From NCBI GenBank assembly GCA_903859705.1, contig CAIONQ010000028.1, forward strand, positions 1 through 55,759: DNA of 55,759 nucleotides, read 5' to 3'. This DNA is from an uncultured Chthonomonas sp. (lineage in GTDB: Bacteria; Armatimonadota; Chthonomonadetes; Chthonomonadales; Chthonomonadaceae). Under the pieces are notes generated by a model. That model was not told where the DNA came from. It ran no database searches and saw only the letters and a list, made by a program, of their open reading frames with translations. Within the stretch, counting starts at the first letter, position 1. Every line of letters begins with the position of its first letter. A program made the translations under genes and the position numbers. Of this stretch, positions 1 to 9,571 are shown in pieces.

Positions 1-126
1 ACGACCTGAAACGGCAGGAAAAACGAGCGATGGAAGTGAATTCTGCATTGAGAGCGTCCTCTTGTCTGATGATGGATTCGACACCTAACATTTAGACAAA
101 GTGCGCTCTCTTTCCTCATAACATGA

Positions 127-462
127 ATAATTCAGGCTAAGTCAGAAGGCGGCAATTGGAGGATCCACATCTGTCACAATGCATGGAAGAACTCGGCAAA
201 ATGCTCCATCGACTGTGTATTGATGCACGAAATAATTCATACTTGCAGTATAAAGCATTTTGGCAATAATAATGGCCCGGGTAAATCAAACGGAAACTTG
301 GTCGAGGACTGTCAGTGTTTTAACTGTATTCGAAAAGGTAACAAAAGCTGTGATGGCAACTGGTCGCCTTCAGATGATACGGCAAGCCGAGTTGGTATTA
401 ATGGTTGCAATCAGGTAGCCGGCTCACGCACAGCAAAGCCATGCGGAAAGTCGATCGCGTGA
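127..462 (+). pseudogene. Cysteine-rich HExxH fragment, possible orphan toxin tip (RHS/polymorphic-toxin C-terminus type)
   Basis: An open frame of 111 codons runs from just after an in-frame TGA (124-126) to a TGA at 460-462. It has no convincing start codon; the first candidates are TTG 220 and ATG 223, inside the motif. It encodes about ten cysteines and the segment CSIDCVLMHEIIHTC, which combines a zincin HExxH motif with flanking cysteines in the C...C...HE..H...C arrangement I associate with metalloprotease-like tips of RHS-type toxins. The stop overlaps the ATG of the ankyrin gene by one base (TGATG), as in coupled toxin-immunity pairs. The absence of a start and of an upstream RHS core suggests a displaced or truncated toxin end. 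The frame and cysteine pattern are seen directly; the toxin role is inference. Positions 1-126 hold two other short open frames that I cannot identify. Confidence 0.4.
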
Positions 463-1349
463 TGTCATCAAACGCCACGAGATGGAGAATCGGTTTGGGC
501 GTACAAAAGTACAACCTTCATAAGCGATGGTATTGTATAAGGTATTGCACCGTAGTCATAATGGGAGCTTTGCTATGGTTCACGCACGAAAGGTTGCGCA
601 AACACGATGCCAGTCAGGGGTTAGTTGAAGCAGTCAGATTACGCAACTACAGCGCCGTGACAGCGATGATCAATGTAGGTGCTGACGTTAATTGGGCGCC
701 AGTCGACCAGAAGGCTGTCACCTCGAATCCACTGGACTATTTCCGTCATTTGTTTAATCATCGGTCGGCTACGAGATCTCCAAGGGGACCAACGCCGCTC
801 ATGATAGCTGCAGGTTATGAAGAATACAGCCAATATAAGTCAGTGATTCTGCCAAATCTTGATATAGTTAGAGTCCTTATGGCGCACGGAGCAGACCCGA
901 ATAGCTCGGATTCACGTGGTGTTACGGCGTTCATGGTGTTGGCGTGGAAAAGCGCCTATTTTGAACGATATGTGAAACAACACCGTATGAAAAGCACGGA
1001 TGATCCACTGTCAGCCTTTGAATTGATAGTGGGGCACGGCGCAAAAACAGAAGCGAAGGATTCGCGTGGATACACAGCATTGTTCGGTGCAGAACCGAGA
1101 TATGCATTGGTACTTTTAGCCCACGGCGCCAACGTTAACGCACGAGGCGGCGGTGGAGAAACGCCGCTAACATGCGCTGCTTTTAACGGAAACATCGACT
1201 ACTGCAAATTTCTGATAGAACACGGCGCATATACCGAACTTAAGGACAATTGTGGCAAGAAGCCGGTTGACTATGCAAACGAAATGATGGAACGGGGCGA
1301 GAACTTTAGACAAGCGTACGTTTTCCTGCGGGCTCACACCAGTCCGTAA
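462..1349 (+). CDS. Membrane-anchored ankyrin-repeat protein (possible immunity protein)
   Basis: 295-residue protein if started at ATG 462, which overlaps the preceding frame's TGA; in-frame starts at 405 and 441 would add 19 or 7 residues. A basic N-terminus is followed by one hydrophobic segment near residues 28-45 (IRYCTVVIMGALLWF), then ankyrin-type repeats with recurring (V/A)xxHGAxxN/E and GxTAL/GETPL turns. Examples are VLMAHGADPNSSDSRG, LLAHGANVNARGGGGETPL and LIEHGAYTELKDNCG. Ankyrin repeats mediate protein-protein contacts, and ankyrin proteins are known among immunity proteins of polymorphic toxins. Here the overlap with the upstream Cys-rich HExxH fragment suggests that role, with neutralisation at the membrane. 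An unrelated scaffolding role is equally possible. The repeat family is clear; the function is inferred from context. Confidence 0.75.
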   Translation: MSSNATRWRIGLGVQKYNLHKRWYCIRYCTVVIMGALLWFTHERLRKHDASQGLVEAVRLRNYSAVTAMINVGADVNWAPVDQKAVTSNPLDYFRHLFNHRSATRSPRGPTPLMIAAGYEEYSQYKSVILPNLDIVRVLMAHGADPNSSDSRGVTAFMVLAWKSAYFERYVKQHRMKSTDDPLSAFELIVGHGAKTEAKDSRGYTALFGAEPRYALVLLAHGANVNARGGGGETPLTCAAFNGNIDYCKFLIEHGAYTELKDNCGKKPVDYANEMMERGENFRQAYVFLRAHTSP

Positions 1350-5017: not shown

Positions 5018-6955
5018 TTACCGTCCTCCGCCCTGTGTAATCGCCATCGCCAGTGCGATAATCAGCAGGCAGGCCATTACAACAGTGGTATACATCTGCG
5101 CCTGGCCAGTGGCGGTTCGTCGCAATCGATCACCGCTCCATCCGCAGGCATGCCCTATGGCATCCATGGCTCCATCGATGAATTTGCGATCAAACCAGGC
5201 AATTCCGCGGCCCAGTGCCAGGGCTCCGGCAGCAGCAACGCTGCCCCAGAAGGCATCGATAAACCACAGATTAGCAAAGAGCGTGTACCCGGGGACCTTT
5301 GTAATAGGGTCCACCGCTTTCGGCGTTCTATACATGCTCCAGCCCAGCAGCGCGCCGCCAACACCACATGCAATTGCAAGTGCCACCAGCCACAGCACCA
5401 CAGGCTCTGGAGCGCCTTCCGCACCGCCATTTAAGAAGGTGGTAAAGCGCTCGCCAGAATGCAGGAACCAGCCAATTCCCAGCGAGAACAGGGCGAGGAT
5501 CGCGAGCGGGGTGGTCATTACCACCGGACCTTCGTGCGCATGTGCGGCCGTTTCCGAGCGGGATTCGCCGGAGAATGTTAGCATCCACATGCGTATGCTG
5601 TAGAACGCTGTAAGCGCGGCAACAATCAGCGCAACAATCAGGCCAACTTTTGCCATGGGGTTGGGGCTGGCGAGCGCCGCTCCCAGAATGGCATCTTTGC
5701 TCCAGAACCCACTTAGTGGTGGAATGCCAGCCAGGGCCAGCGCACCAATAAGGCAGGTTGCCGAGGTAATGCGCATCTTTTTGCCAAGGCCGCCCATGCC
5801 GCTCATATCATTAGGGTTGGCTGCGTGGTGCATGGCATGGATTACAGAGCCTGCGGTTAGGAAGAGCAGGGCCTTAAACATAGCATGCGTCACCAGGTGA
5901 AACAGCCCCGCATCCCGGCTGCCACAGCCCAGCGCAATAAACATATATCCCAGCTGGCTGATGGTGGAGTAGGCCATCACCTTCTTGATATCTGTTTGCA
6001 CCATGGCAATAGTGGCCGCTATCAGTGCGGTGATAGATCCCACCAGAATAATCACATCCTGCACAACCACACTGGCCTGAAAAATCGGCAGCAGGCGCGC
6101 AACCATGTACACTCCGGCAGCTACCATGGTTGCTGCATGGATAAGAGCTGATACCGGGGTTGGGCCTTCCATTGCATCCGGCAGCCACACATGCAGCGGA
6201 AACTGCGCAGATTTGCCGATTGCTCCACAGAACAGAAGTAGCGGCGCAACTATTAAAAAGGCCTGGGTAGAGAGCAGGGGAATGCTTAGCGCCTGTCCGC
6301 CGGCTGCGGCGGTTACCGCATGCTGAACTTCTGTGAATTGAAAGCTGCCCGCGGCGGAAACCATTAGCAGCACGCCAAGAAAGAAGCCTACATCACCAAA
6401 GCGCGTAACAATAAATGCCTTTTTTGCTGCATCCGATGCAGACTTTTTGCTCCACCAGAAGCCAATTAGCAGGTAGCTGCAGATGCCCACCAGTTCCCAG
6501 CATACATACAGCTGAAACAGGTTATCCGCAAGCACCAGGCCAAGCATTGAGCTGGTGAACAGCGAGAGGCACGCAAAATACCGGGCGTAAGCGGGCTCTG
6601 TTTTCATATACCCCGTGGAGTATATCTGCACGAGAGTGCTCACCAGGCAAACCACTGCAAGCATCATCCAGGCCATGGCGTCTATGTGAACGCTAAGCGC
6701 GATGGTAACGCCATGCGGTATGGAAAGCCAGGCGTAGTGCGCAGAGGCTGGTACCGCCCCGGCAGCCGGGAAGTGGGCTGCCGTAATACCGGCGCTTATC
6801 AGGGTTGCAATGAGGGTTATAAACGGAGCTGCAGCGCGCATGCGCCCAGTAATCGCCAGTACTGCGCAAAGCGCAGCCGCGATCATGGGAGCCAGCGGCA
6901 GAAGCCACAATGGCAGGGCACCGAGTGCATTCAATGTTGGCCCTATCCTTTCCAC
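5018..6955 (-). CDS. nuoL: NADH-quinone oxidoreductase subunit L
   Basis: Distal proton-channel subunit of the membrane arm, 645 residues. It has an N-terminal Proton_antipo_N region (STGYMKTEPAYARYFA, LFQLYVCWELVGICSYLLIG) and a Proton_antipo_M core containing AQFPLHVWLPDAMEGPTPVS and ALIHAATMVAAGVYMVAR. The C-terminal extension holds the region expected for the lateral helix and final TM segment. Length fits NuoL rather than the shorter Mrp/Hyf relatives, and its place between nuoK (37-base gap) and nuoM (6-base gap) is canonical. Confidence 0.95.
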   Translation of the reverse strand: MERIGPTLNALGALPLWLLPLAPMIAAALCAVLAITGRMRAAAPFITLIATLISAGITAAHFPAAGAVPASAHYAWLSIPHGVTIALSVHIDAMAWMMLAVVCLVSTLVQIYSTGYMKTEPAYARYFACLSLFTSSMLGLVLADNLFQLYVCWELVGICSYLLIGFWWSKKSASDAAKKAFIVTRFGDVGFFLGVLLMVSAAGSFQFTEVQHAVTAAAGGQALSIPLLSTQAFLIVAPLLLFCGAIGKSAQFPLHVWLPDAMEGPTPVSALIHAATMVAAGVYMVARLLPIFQASVVVQDVIILVGSITALIAATIAMVQTDIKKVMAYSTISQLGYMFIALGCGSRDAGLFHLVTHAMFKALLFLTAGSVIHAMHHAANPNDMSGMGGLGKKMRITSATCLIGALALAGIPPLSGFWSKDAILGAALASPNPMAKVGLIVALIVAALTAFYSIRMWMLTFSGESRSETAAHAHEGPVVMTTPLAILALFSLGIGWFLHSGERFTTFLNGGAEGAPEPVVLWLVALAIACGVGGALLGWSMYRTPKAVDPITKVPGYTLFANLWFIDAFWGSVAAAGALALGRGIAWFDRKFIDGAMDAIGHACGWSGDRLRRTATGQAQMYTTVVMACLLIIALAMAITQGGGR

Positions 6956-6992
6956 TGGGTAGGCAGTAGGTTGCAGAGCAAGCTCTGGCCCA

Positions 6993-7298
6993 TCAGCCCT
7001 TCAAACTGTCTGCGCGGTCGACCTCGATCGCGCCGAAATCTCGATAAATGTTCAGCACCACGGCCAGCCCAATAGCGGCATCGGCGGCGGCAACCGTTAG
7101 CCCAACCAGAACAAACACCTGAGGCTCTACTGCAACGGGGTGCAGAAATCGCCAGAAGGCAAGAAAGTTAAGGTTGGCGGCATTCAGCATCAGCTCTATG
7201 CCCATCAGCACCGCAATGGCGTTTCTGCGGGTGATTACGCCATAGGTGCCTACGGCAAATAGCAATGCGCTGATAGTTAGGAAGCCGGTTAGTCCCAT
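6993..7298 (-). CDS. nuoK: NADH-quinone oxidoreductase subunit K
   Basis: Small three-helix membrane subunit of complex I, 101 residues, the standard length. The second helix contains the conserved glutamate in GIELMLNAANLNFLAF, part of the proton-translocation path, and the third helix region (VGLTVAAADAAIGLAVVLNI) carries the usual alanine/glycine-rich pattern. It sits 9 bases downstream of nuoJ and 37 bases upstream of nuoL. No anomalies. Confidence 0.94.
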   Translation of the reverse strand: MGLTGFLTISALLFAVGTYGVITRRNAIAVLMGIELMLNAANLNFLAFWRFLHPVAVEPQVFVLVGLTVAAADAAIGLAVVLNIYRDFGAIEVDRADSLKG

Positions 7299-7307
7299 TT
7301 CGGTATC

Positions 7308-7871
7308 CTACTCTCCACCGGCCGTGCCGGAAGTAAGATCGGCAAGAGGCGCCGGTTCAGGAACAGGGCCACGGTCCGATTTGGCAAGTACAATTGCGCC
7401 TATAAGCGCCGCAAGCAGCAGCAGGGAAGCCACTTCAAACGGCACGGCATAGTTCTGGATTAGAGCATTGCCCAGCGCTTCGGTTTGTACGCCGGCAGGT
7501 TTAGGAGTATCCGTAGTAATGGCCCACGGGTGTTTCACCAGAATAAACGTAGAGCCAGCGGCAAACGCGGTGCAAACCAGTGCTGCAACCGGTTTGAGGC
7601 GGTTGGACTGGGATTCTGTTGGGTTCATTGCGTTGCGTGTAAGCATAAGTGCAAACAGAACCAGCACCAGAATGGCGCCTGCGTATATCAGCAGCTGGGT
7701 AACAAAGAAGAAGTGCGCTTCCAGTGCTGCATACAGCCCGGCCACGCCCAGAAAACAGGGCAACAGCCAGAAGCCGGCATGTACAATGCTGCGCGAGTTA
7801 ACCACAAACAGTGCTGGCACCAGGGTTAGCACGCCAAGGCTGATAAATACGAGGAGTGATGCGGTATCCAC
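7308..7871 (-). CDS. nuoJ: NADH-quinone oxidoreductase subunit J
   Basis: Membrane subunit with five hydrophobic segments, 187 residues. The characteristic stretch AHFFFVTQLLIYAGAILVLVL (helix 3, pi-bulge region) is present, preceded by HAGFWLLPCFLGVAGLYAAL and followed by the variable region and a final helix LLLLAALIGAIVLAKS. It follows nuoI with a 2-base gap and precedes nuoK by 9 bases. It belongs to the junction of the membrane and peripheral arms. Confidence 0.93.
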   Translation of the reverse strand: MDTASLLVFISLGVLTLVPALFVVNSRSIVHAGFWLLPCFLGVAGLYAALEAHFFFVTQLLIYAGAILVLVLFALMLTRNAMNPTESQSNRLKPVAALVCTAFAAGSTFILVKHPWAITTDTPKPAGVQTEALGNALIQNYAVPFEVASLLLLAALIGAIVLAKSDRGPVPEPAPLADLTSGTAGGE

Positions 7872-7873
7872 GA

Positions 7874-8437
7874 TCAGGCCCCCTCCTTAGGGGCATGTGC
7901 CGCCCCATGCCCGCCGCTTTCGCCCGCTGCAGCAGCCTTCGCGGCCTTCTCTGCAGCCTCGGCGGCAAGCGCGGTTGATATGGTGTTGTAGTTCTTTTCG
8001 GCTGCGGCCGCGCCGCCCTGCGCCAGGCTGGTTAGCGGGAATACGCATACGTTTCTATCGGTAGAGGCCAGTTCAAACTGTGTTGTCATCTCGATGGCTT
8101 CAAACGGGCAGGCCTCTACGCACAGGTTGCAGAACATGCAGCGGCCCAGGTCCATCTGGAAATCCTGTATGCCGCCATGTTTGCCTGCCCCCAGCTTTGT
8201 TAATGTAATAACATTGGTGGGGCACGCCTGAATACACAGCGTGCAGCCGGTGCAGTTTAATCGGCCGTTGGCTTCGTTAAATGGCAGCACAAACAGCCCC
8301 CGGTAACGGGGCGCCACATCGGCCTTTTCGTAAGGGTAGAGTACGGTGGTCTTATCTCTTCCCAGGTTGGCTCCAGTGATCTTCATGCCGCGCAGGAAGC
8401 TCATGAAACCGCTGAATAGATCTTGAATGGTGTTCAT
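7874..8437 (-). CDS. nuoI: NADH-quinone oxidoreductase subunit I (8Fe ferredoxin subunit)
   Basis: Peripheral-arm subunit, 187 residues, with two [4Fe-4S] motifs: CTGCTLCIQACPTNVI and CMFCNLCVEACPFEAIEM, both complete with the CxxCxxCxxxCP spacing (clusters N6a/N6b). The last ~40 residues are a low-complexity Ala/Glu/Lys tail (AAEAAEKAAKAAAA) ending in a Gly-His segment, longer than in many homologues. In an enzyme without NuoEFG, these clusters with N2 in NuoB would be the only chain to quinone, and NuoI or the face normally covered by NuoG is a likely entry point for ferredoxin (inference). Confidence 0.95.
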   Translation of the reverse strand: MNTIQDLFSGFMSFLRGMKITGANLGRDKTTVLYPYEKADVAPRYRGLFVLPFNEANGRLNCTGCTLCIQACPTNVITLTKLGAGKHGGIQDFQMDLGRCMFCNLCVEACPFEAIEMTTQFELASTDRNVCVFPLTSLAQGGAAAAEKNYNTISTALAAEAAEKAAKAAAAGESGGHGAAHAPKEGA

Positions 8438-8458
8438 GGTGTGATCTCCTGCAATCTG

Positions 8459-9571
8459 TTAATGGGAAACCCCGGCGATAGCTGCCGCACAGATAAGTGC
8501 CATGCTTGCAGGCACCAGAACCTTCCAGCAGAAGCTCATCATCTGATCGATACGCAGGCGGGGTAGCGTCCACCGAATCCACATCATCAGAAAGATGACG
8601 CACAGCGTTTTGAGCGTGAACCACACCGCAGCGGGCAGGCCCGCTCCCAGCCATCCGCCGAAGAACAGCGTAACAGCCAGGCCTGCAGAGAAGAAGTTGT
8701 TTGCAAACTCTGCCAGAAAGAAGAAGGCAAAGCGCATGCCGCTGTACTCTGTGTGGAAGCCGGATACAAGCTCGGATTCTGCTTCCGGCAGATCGAACGG
8801 TGCGCGGTTAACTTCGGCCAGCGTGCAGATGAGGAATATCAGAAACGCCGGGATCATAAGCAGCGGGTGCGCCGCAATGTTCCACAGCTTCTCCTGCTGG
8901 GTAACTATGCCGGTTAAAGACATGGTTCCGCTGAGCATTACCACACTCAGCATCACCAGTATCAGCGGTACATCGTATGAAAGCAGCTGCGCAATGGCGC
9001 GTACACCGCCCAGCAGAGAGTACTTATTGTTGGATCCCCAACCAGCAGCAAACACACCCAGAATGGAGGTTGTGGAGATGCTGAGCACAAACAGAGCGCC
9101 GAGAGGCAGATCGTAACCAACCCAGGCCGAGGTAAACGGCAGCACCATGAAGGTGAGCAGGGAGGGCACAAACACCAGATAAGGCGCTAATGCAAACAGC
9201 GGTTTATCGGCATCTGTGGGCACTATATCTTCTTTAAGCAGCAGTTTAACGGCATCTGCAACGGTTTGCAGCAGGCCTTTCCAGCCTACATGCATCGGCC
9301 CTACGCGGGCCTGCATCCAGCCAGCAAACTTGCGCTCCAGCCATATGAAGCCCAGGCACTGCAGCGCCACAAAGTTGGCCACCATGGCCGCATTTGCCAG
9401 TGCATTTAGCAGTGGGTAGCGCGCTACAAAGCTGGTGAGCGGTTTTAACAGCTGCCACGGCAGGTGCGGAATGGCGCTTGCTATGGCGATAATCGCTACT
9501 GTGATGCTGATGCCCAGGCCAACTTCTGCGGCGCGTATGGGGCGGCGAGAGCGGAGTATTCCGGAAGTCAT
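8459..9571 (-). CDS. nuoH: NADH-quinone oxidoreductase subunit H
   Basis: Membrane subunit that forms the quinone-binding heel of complex I, 370 residues, about eight hydrophobic helices. The family loop EVNRAPFDLPEAESELVSGF, followed by HTEYSGMRFAFFFLAEF, is intact, as are FIWLERKFAGWMQARVGP and LLQTVADAVKLLLKED, which carry the E channel and quinone-site residues. Its ATG overlaps the nuoD stop by 4 bases. In genomes lacking nuoE/F/G, H usually follows D directly, as here, because nuoE/F/G would normally sit between them. Confidence 0.95.
   Translation of the reverse strand: MTSGILRSRRPIRAAEVGLGISITVAIIAIASAIPHLPWQLLKPLTSFVARYPLLNALANAAMVANFVALQCLGFIWLERKFAGWMQARVGPMHVGWKGLLQTVADAVKLLLKEDIVPTDADKPLFALAPYLVFVPSLLTFMVLPFTSAWVGYDLPLGALFVLSISTTSILGVFAAGWGSNNKYSLLGGVRAIAQLLSYDVPLILVMLSVVMLSGTMSLTGIVTQQEKLWNIAAHPLLMIPAFLIFLICTLAEVNRAPFDLPEAESELVSGFHTEYSGMRFAFFFLAEFANNFFSAGLAVTLFFGGWLGAGLPAAVWFTLKTLCVIFLMMWIRWTLPRLRIDQMMSFCWKVLVPASMALICAAAIAGVSH

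Follow-up and report, generated by a model that had tools for sequence, protein, structure and literature searches.

An ankyrin-repeat gene beside the remnant of a putative zincin-type RHS toxin tip at an IS1380-family insertion sequence in Armatimonadota

At the left end of a contig from an uncultured Chthonomonas species, a cysteine-rich reading frame runs directly into an ankyrin-repeat gene. Is this frame a piece of a toxin, and does the ankyrin gene encode its immunity protein? The window analyzed here is the whole contig of 55,759 nucleotides (C28 of the 6.2-Mb draft genome G000), whose base 1 is the contig edge. On the forward strand, 111 codons are open at 127-459 and end with a TGA stop codon at 460-462, and the ATG codon of the ankyrin gene at 462 uses the A of this stop codon (TGATG). 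Direct reading bears out this overlap, as claimed in the original prediction, together with the predicted cysteine-rich layout: the frame encodes HEIIH at 226-240 and has 10 Cys residues. It lacks an ATG codon, and its sole start-like codon is a TTG at 220.

The missing start codon and an in-frame stop codon at 124-126 might mean that the frame is an untranslated chance sequence and that the ankyrin gene stands alone. When the bases of the fragment were shuffled 5000 times, the frame was open in three of the shuffles, and an HExxH motif with at least nine Cys residues occurred in none. Homologues were found elsewhere in the same genome (C36; E = 2.5e-9) and in related genomes (G026:C53, E = 6.8e-9; G030:C939, E = 7.0e-8), with weaker matches in others. 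This significant homology to RHS tips, with an invariant Cys and HExxH, refutes the chance frame, while the stop codon and the missing start codon are explained by an insertion sequence (IS), as described below. Thus, a chance origin is scarcely credible, although the frame may well be untranslated today.

RHS context and distribution of the tip family

The relatives of the frame share one order: YD/RHS repeats or an RHS core, a DPxG boundary, and then a Cys-rich domain of approximately 140-200 residues with HE..H.CG..H. RHS tips after a DPxG boundary were found at G026:C53 (in an RHS frame of 872 aa), G030:C939, G036:C592, G036:C188, G097:C336, and G001:C351, as well as at C36 and C68 of the same genome. 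A variable C-terminal domain following an RHS core and a DPxG boundary, which marks an RHS tip, is thus present in the relatives; in the window copy, which is preceded by the IS and the contig edge, the core is out of view. The idea that the frame belongs to an RHS-type metalloprotease tip has survived, since its homologues, far from being absent from toxins, are RHS C-terminal tips; the protease activity is presumptive. Might the zincin domain serve as a peptidase for processing or releasing the RHS protein and not as its toxic part? PVC-metallopeptidases do release other polymorphic toxins (PMC3482391). However, the domain stands at the very C-terminus, no tip follows it, and its place is in the variable region past the core boundary. 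A release function is therefore quite improbable.

How far does the family extend? The window remnant matched the family profile with E = 1.3e-23 over model positions 97-174 of 178. A search with an eight-member profile found the family in 16 of 291 Armatimonadota genomes. It was found in none of 398 genomes of another phylum (that of G291, a contig titled Granulosicoccaceae), a weak negative because this search lacked a positive control. Across 84,980 GTDB species, a pattern scan gave 16 matches, of which 12 were rejected as chance frames; the other four, on three genomes, look like real RHS-type tips. Two of these genomes are titled Armatimonadota and the third is SYMT01, the same as G036. 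Plasmids yielded no match to the family, nor did viral contigs searched with narrow peptide patterns. The tip family is apparently confined to Armatimonadota. In the open papers searched, no mention was found of the older name of this phylum together with Rhs and toxin, and the toxin tips of Armatimonadota appear to be undescribed.

Two side observations concern individual genomes. The SYMT01 metagenome-assembled genome is titled Actinomycetota; its contig equals that of G036, which was placed in Armatimonadota by a genome search, and the public title looks wrong. Genome G001 has two near-identical tip N-termini (G001:C469 and G001:C351), and the C469 copy diverges and ends early, as a decayed tip.

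The insertion sequence and the lost half of the domain

The original prediction found neither a start codon nor an upstream RHS core and proposed a displaced cassette. The absence is real, but an IS1380-family insertion explains it better than displacement does. Window 1-136 (forward strand) is an end of such an element, with the terminal inverted repeat ...TGAATAATTCAGG. Contigs C14 and C61 end in copies of window 1-139 (100% and 99% identity), and the IS boundary at 136 was set by comparing the copies. The window IS end is 76% identical to the end of an element on C121, which extends from 1 to 1665. The C121 element was assigned to the IS1380 family because it has 12-bp inverted repeats and, between them, a transposase matching PF13701 (DDE_Tnp_1_4, E = 6.9e-144); the window displays one end only. 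The tetranucleotide CTAA at 137-140, which adjoins the IS end, is presumed to be the 4-bp target site, fitting the YTAR pattern. CTAG, TTAG, TTAG, and CTAA adjoin the other IS ends, and YTAR was found beside every end seen. A second copy of CTAA on the far side of the window IS was not found, that side being outside the assembly.

Since window 1-136 is a transposon end, nothing RHS-like lies upstream. The in-frame TGA at 124-126 is borne by the IS, and both this stop codon and the missing start codon are explained by the insertion. The residues read from 127-136 are likewise derived from the IS, and in the alignment with relatives the homology to RHS tips restarts at the IS junction (AKS...). 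Residual toxin homology was sought in window 1-136, and only IS sequence was found. The distance from DPxG to HExxH is approximately 120 residues in relatives, while approximately 30 residues are kept in the window. The sequence is best explained by an IS that cuts the toxin domain, with the N-terminal ~90 residues of the window copy gone. What remains at 137-462 (forward strand) would be a Cys-rich zincin-type RHS toxin tip reduced to its C-terminal half, broken at its 5′ side by the IS and without a start codon of its own. Because the N-terminal ~90 residues of the domain are missing, toxin activity of the window copy is very unlikely. When the lost half was sought in G000 with the family profile, the significant matches were the C36 copy and the window only.

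Several breaks in the assembly are due to IS1380-family copies (C14, C61, C177, and window 1-140), all of which adjoin YTAR. Beyond the inverted repeat, the end of C177 matched the left end of the C121 IS no better than a shuffled control; C61 and C177 were therefore not paired as one IS copy.

At the C36 locus (6718-8932), a partial core and a displaced RHS tip precede an intact TM-ankyrin gene, and the tip has an in-frame stop codon in the C-terminal part, where the relatives read on. The ankyrin genes of the window and C36 are both intact. That the toxin is lost and the probable immunity gene kept is in line with the biology of such loci; the window offers a concrete case, in which a transposon insertion removes the toxin and the likely immunity gene is left intact. 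Orphan rhs-CT/rhsI modules are start-less toxin fragments with intact immunity genes (Koskiniemi et al. 2014, PMC3967940). The C36 copy, with a partial RHS core before the tip, suits this description well. The window copy differs in that an IS junction within the toxin domain forms its 5′ end and half of the domain is missing.

Motif and predicted fold of the tip domain

The zinc-site motif of the window copy, read directly at 226-258 (forward strand), is HEIIHTCSIKH, corresponding to HExxHxCxxxH with the third His at the metzincin-type spacing. All of 19 family members examined share the Cys at position 7. Gly occupies position 8 in 15 of them, and position 11 holds His in 13 and Asp in three (His or Asp in 16 of the 19). 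The family has the metzincin motif HExxHxxGxxH/D, with Ser in place of Gly in the window copy. A Met-turn is also part of the definition of metzincins. No conserved Met after the motif was found in three family alignments; since no Met-turn is recognizable, filing the family as a metzincin was rejected. Each intact tip region has 11-22 Cys residues.

Is the domain covered by a known family? No convincing Pfam or NCBIfam match, including Tox-MPTase1-5, was found for any member, and none of the toxin-peptidase models of Pfam and NCBIfam matched any of eight members at E ≤ 1. In the HMM comparison that had been proposed for the 111-residue frame, no Tox-MPTase model appeared among the Pfam matches at E ≤ 10. 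The lack of a Pfam or NCBIfam model match upholds the earlier expectation that the tip may be little described. The weak Pfam matches of the members are mostly to Matrixin/Reprolysin (E ≥ 0.01), and the best PDB sequence matches are the reprolysins ADAM8 and acutolysin, again weak (E of about 0.06-0.09). SprT-like (E = 0.013) and DUF4022 matches of the window fragment were discarded, being below the cut-offs and not common to the relatives.

A predicted structure of an intact relative (pLDDT 59, pTM 0.60) has a beta sheet, the HExxH helix, and a C-terminal helix in this order, as in the zincin fold. A Foldseek search with this model gave no significant match. In a second structure comparison, almost all of the PDB neighbours listed were zinc metallopeptidases or further enzymes of the HExxH type (AsaP1, GfMEP, YbeY, Wss1, and Pra1), the best one having a Z score of 7.5, within the range that the tool calls common. 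The model agrees with a zincin-type fold for the tip domain but does not prove it, and the domain would presumably bind zinc and act as a protease.

Tox-MPTase1-5 resemble the tip family in being small HExxH metallopeptidase domains at the C-terminus of RHS proteins (Zhang et al. 2012, PMC3482391). Tox-MPTase is said to be distantly related to Wss1 (PMC3482391), one of the structural neighbours of the tip-family model. In contrast to Tox-MPTase1-5, the tip family is Cys-rich, has the third ligand at the metzincin spacing, and lacks a model match. Moreover, no immunity partner of Tox-MPTase1-5 is given in the table of PMC3482391, whereas the tip family has a recurring ankyrin partner. Thus, the family appears to be an undescribed addition to the RHS polymorphic toxins, with a metzincin-like motif and an ankyrin partner, and would provide a protease tip for which there is no curated model.

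The ankyrin gene, other partner genes, and a possible mechanism

The ankyrin-repeat gene at 462-1349 (forward strand; alternative in-frame start codon ATG at 441) is intact and encodes 295 aa, with an Ank_2 match of E = 6.6e-24. Its product is probably a membrane-anchored immunity protein. The N-terminal hydrophobic segment CIRYCTVVIMGALLWFT (residues 25-41, at 534-584 on the forward strand) is a predicted membrane anchor, judged by hydropathy and charge count; its mean hydropathy is a weak 1.65, and the net charge is +3 before and 0 after the segment. Six related TM-ankyrins have a comparable segment. The charge is more positive before the segment than after it in six of the seven TM-ankyrins compared and is equal in G001:C351, which suggests that the ankyrin repeats lie outside the cytoplasm. 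Structure prediction for the ankyrin alone gave no usable model (pLDDT 38).

Does the ankyrin gene belong to the tip? A TM-ankyrin gene is the next gene after the tip in the window and at C36, G030:C939, and G001:C351, and is the second gene at G001:C263. On the assumption that 2% of genes encode ankyrins, an ankyrin as the next gene in at least four of seven cases has p of about 5e-6. At four loci with divergent tips, the ankyrin gene starts within approximately 100 nt of the tip stop codon. The tip may nonetheless be an RHS toxin remnant beside a TM-ankyrin of this lineage that came to lie in RHS cassette regions by chance: G000 has approximately 19 ankyrin matches, close relatives of the same build occur without an upstream tip in G010 and at G001:C234 and G001:C521, and other tips of the family have unrelated partners, either lipoproteins or TM proteins. 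Against this, the proximity of tip and ankyrin at four loci with divergent tips is far above chance, and the position directly 3′ of the tip is the usual place of RHS immunity genes. A bystander ankyrin is hence unlikely. The original prediction of an ankyrin partner holds in that ankyrin genes recur beside tips at other loci; its immunity function is probable, judging from gene order. Ankyrin repeats encoded beside a polymorphic-toxin tip, the hallmark of Imm-ank, are present in the window. Imm-ank is likewise encoded directly after RHS toxin tips (PMC3482391); it is listed there with the nuclease Tox-AHH, whereas the window has a protease-type tip and an ankyrin with an N-terminal membrane anchor.

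After the other family tips, the next gene usually encodes a lipoprotein-like, signal-peptide, or multi-TM protein. The C68 tip, a third and more distant Cys-rich HEIIH tip of G000, is open and is followed by a gene that has a signal-peptide-like N-terminus and is not an ankyrin gene. A hydrophobic N-terminus or export signal was found in the next gene of 14 of 18 Cys-zincin tips and of 7 of 17 control tips, i.e., other, unrelated RHS tips from the same genomes (p = 0.03). The controls weaken the notion that Cys-zincin tips are set apart by a partner that is exported or anchored, and partner export is only modest evidence for an envelope target because the control tips share exported next genes.

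How would the toxin leave the cell? The routes given for RHS toxins in PMC3482391 include Sec-dependent export. Signal peptides start the long RHS frames in G000 and G026, and the T6SS sheath gene VipA was not found in G000, which points to Sec-dependent export of the RHS proteins. Where it would act is a separate matter. Many RHS tips are cytoplasmic enzymes, and the charges flanking the membrane segment of the ankyrin show a modest bias, so the toxin might act in the cytoplasm of the target cell with the anchored repeats facing the cytoplasm. However, the 11-22 Cys residues per intact tip region suggest disulfide bonds and an oxidizing compartment, the long RHS proteins start with signal peptides, and several family partner genes have lipoprotein-type signals; a cytoplasmic site of action seems rather doubtful.

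I consider it fairly probable that the locus is an RHS-type toxin/immunity pair whose toxin was destroyed by an IS1380-family transposon, the toxin being an envelope protease blocked by an outward-facing ankyrin. In intact relatives, a Sec-exported RHS protein would carry a C-terminal Cys-rich HExxHxCGxx[H/D] zinc-metalloprotease domain and reach neighbouring cells on contact. The protease tip may form disulfide bonds as it folds outside the cytoplasm, and its substrates may be proteins of the envelope or the peptides of peptidoglycan. The ankyrin protein, anchored in the inner membrane and with its repeats turned outwards, may bind and block the protease on its way through the envelope of the producer or on arrival from kin. 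The window would then retain the half of the domain with the catalytic helix, together with the complete ankyrin gene. The site of action, as well as binding or inhibition by the ankyrin protein, is deduced here from the gene neighbourhoods and predicted features. To the wider reading, that the phylum has its own undescribed, disulfide-rich protease toxins with a metzincin motif, exported by Sec as RHS proteins and neutralized by outward-facing anchored ankyrins, with the window toxin killed by an IS, I would give about an even chance.

A solved precedent for such a pair comes from Bdellovibrio, where the periplasmic ankyrin Bd3460 is exported and blocks the peptidase Bd3459 encoded beside it (PMC4686830). 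The same arrangement is predicted for the window pair, with an exported ankyrin encoded beside the envelope-acting peptidase that it would block. Bd3459 is a DD-endopeptidase, neither a zincin nor an RHS tip (PMC4686830), and Bd3460 has a signal peptide, while the window ankyrin has a predicted anchor. The parallel ties an ankyrin outside the cytoplasm to a protease toxin in a way that can be tested.

Tips of this kind also occur in arrays. At the loci L069, L070, and L079, a tip, a partner gene, and then another partial RHS core that bears a different tip are repeated in tandem. The whole genome of G000 has approximately 39 RHS-core matches, mostly in open frames of just 200-350 residues, and thus holds a large stock of displaced tip cassettes.
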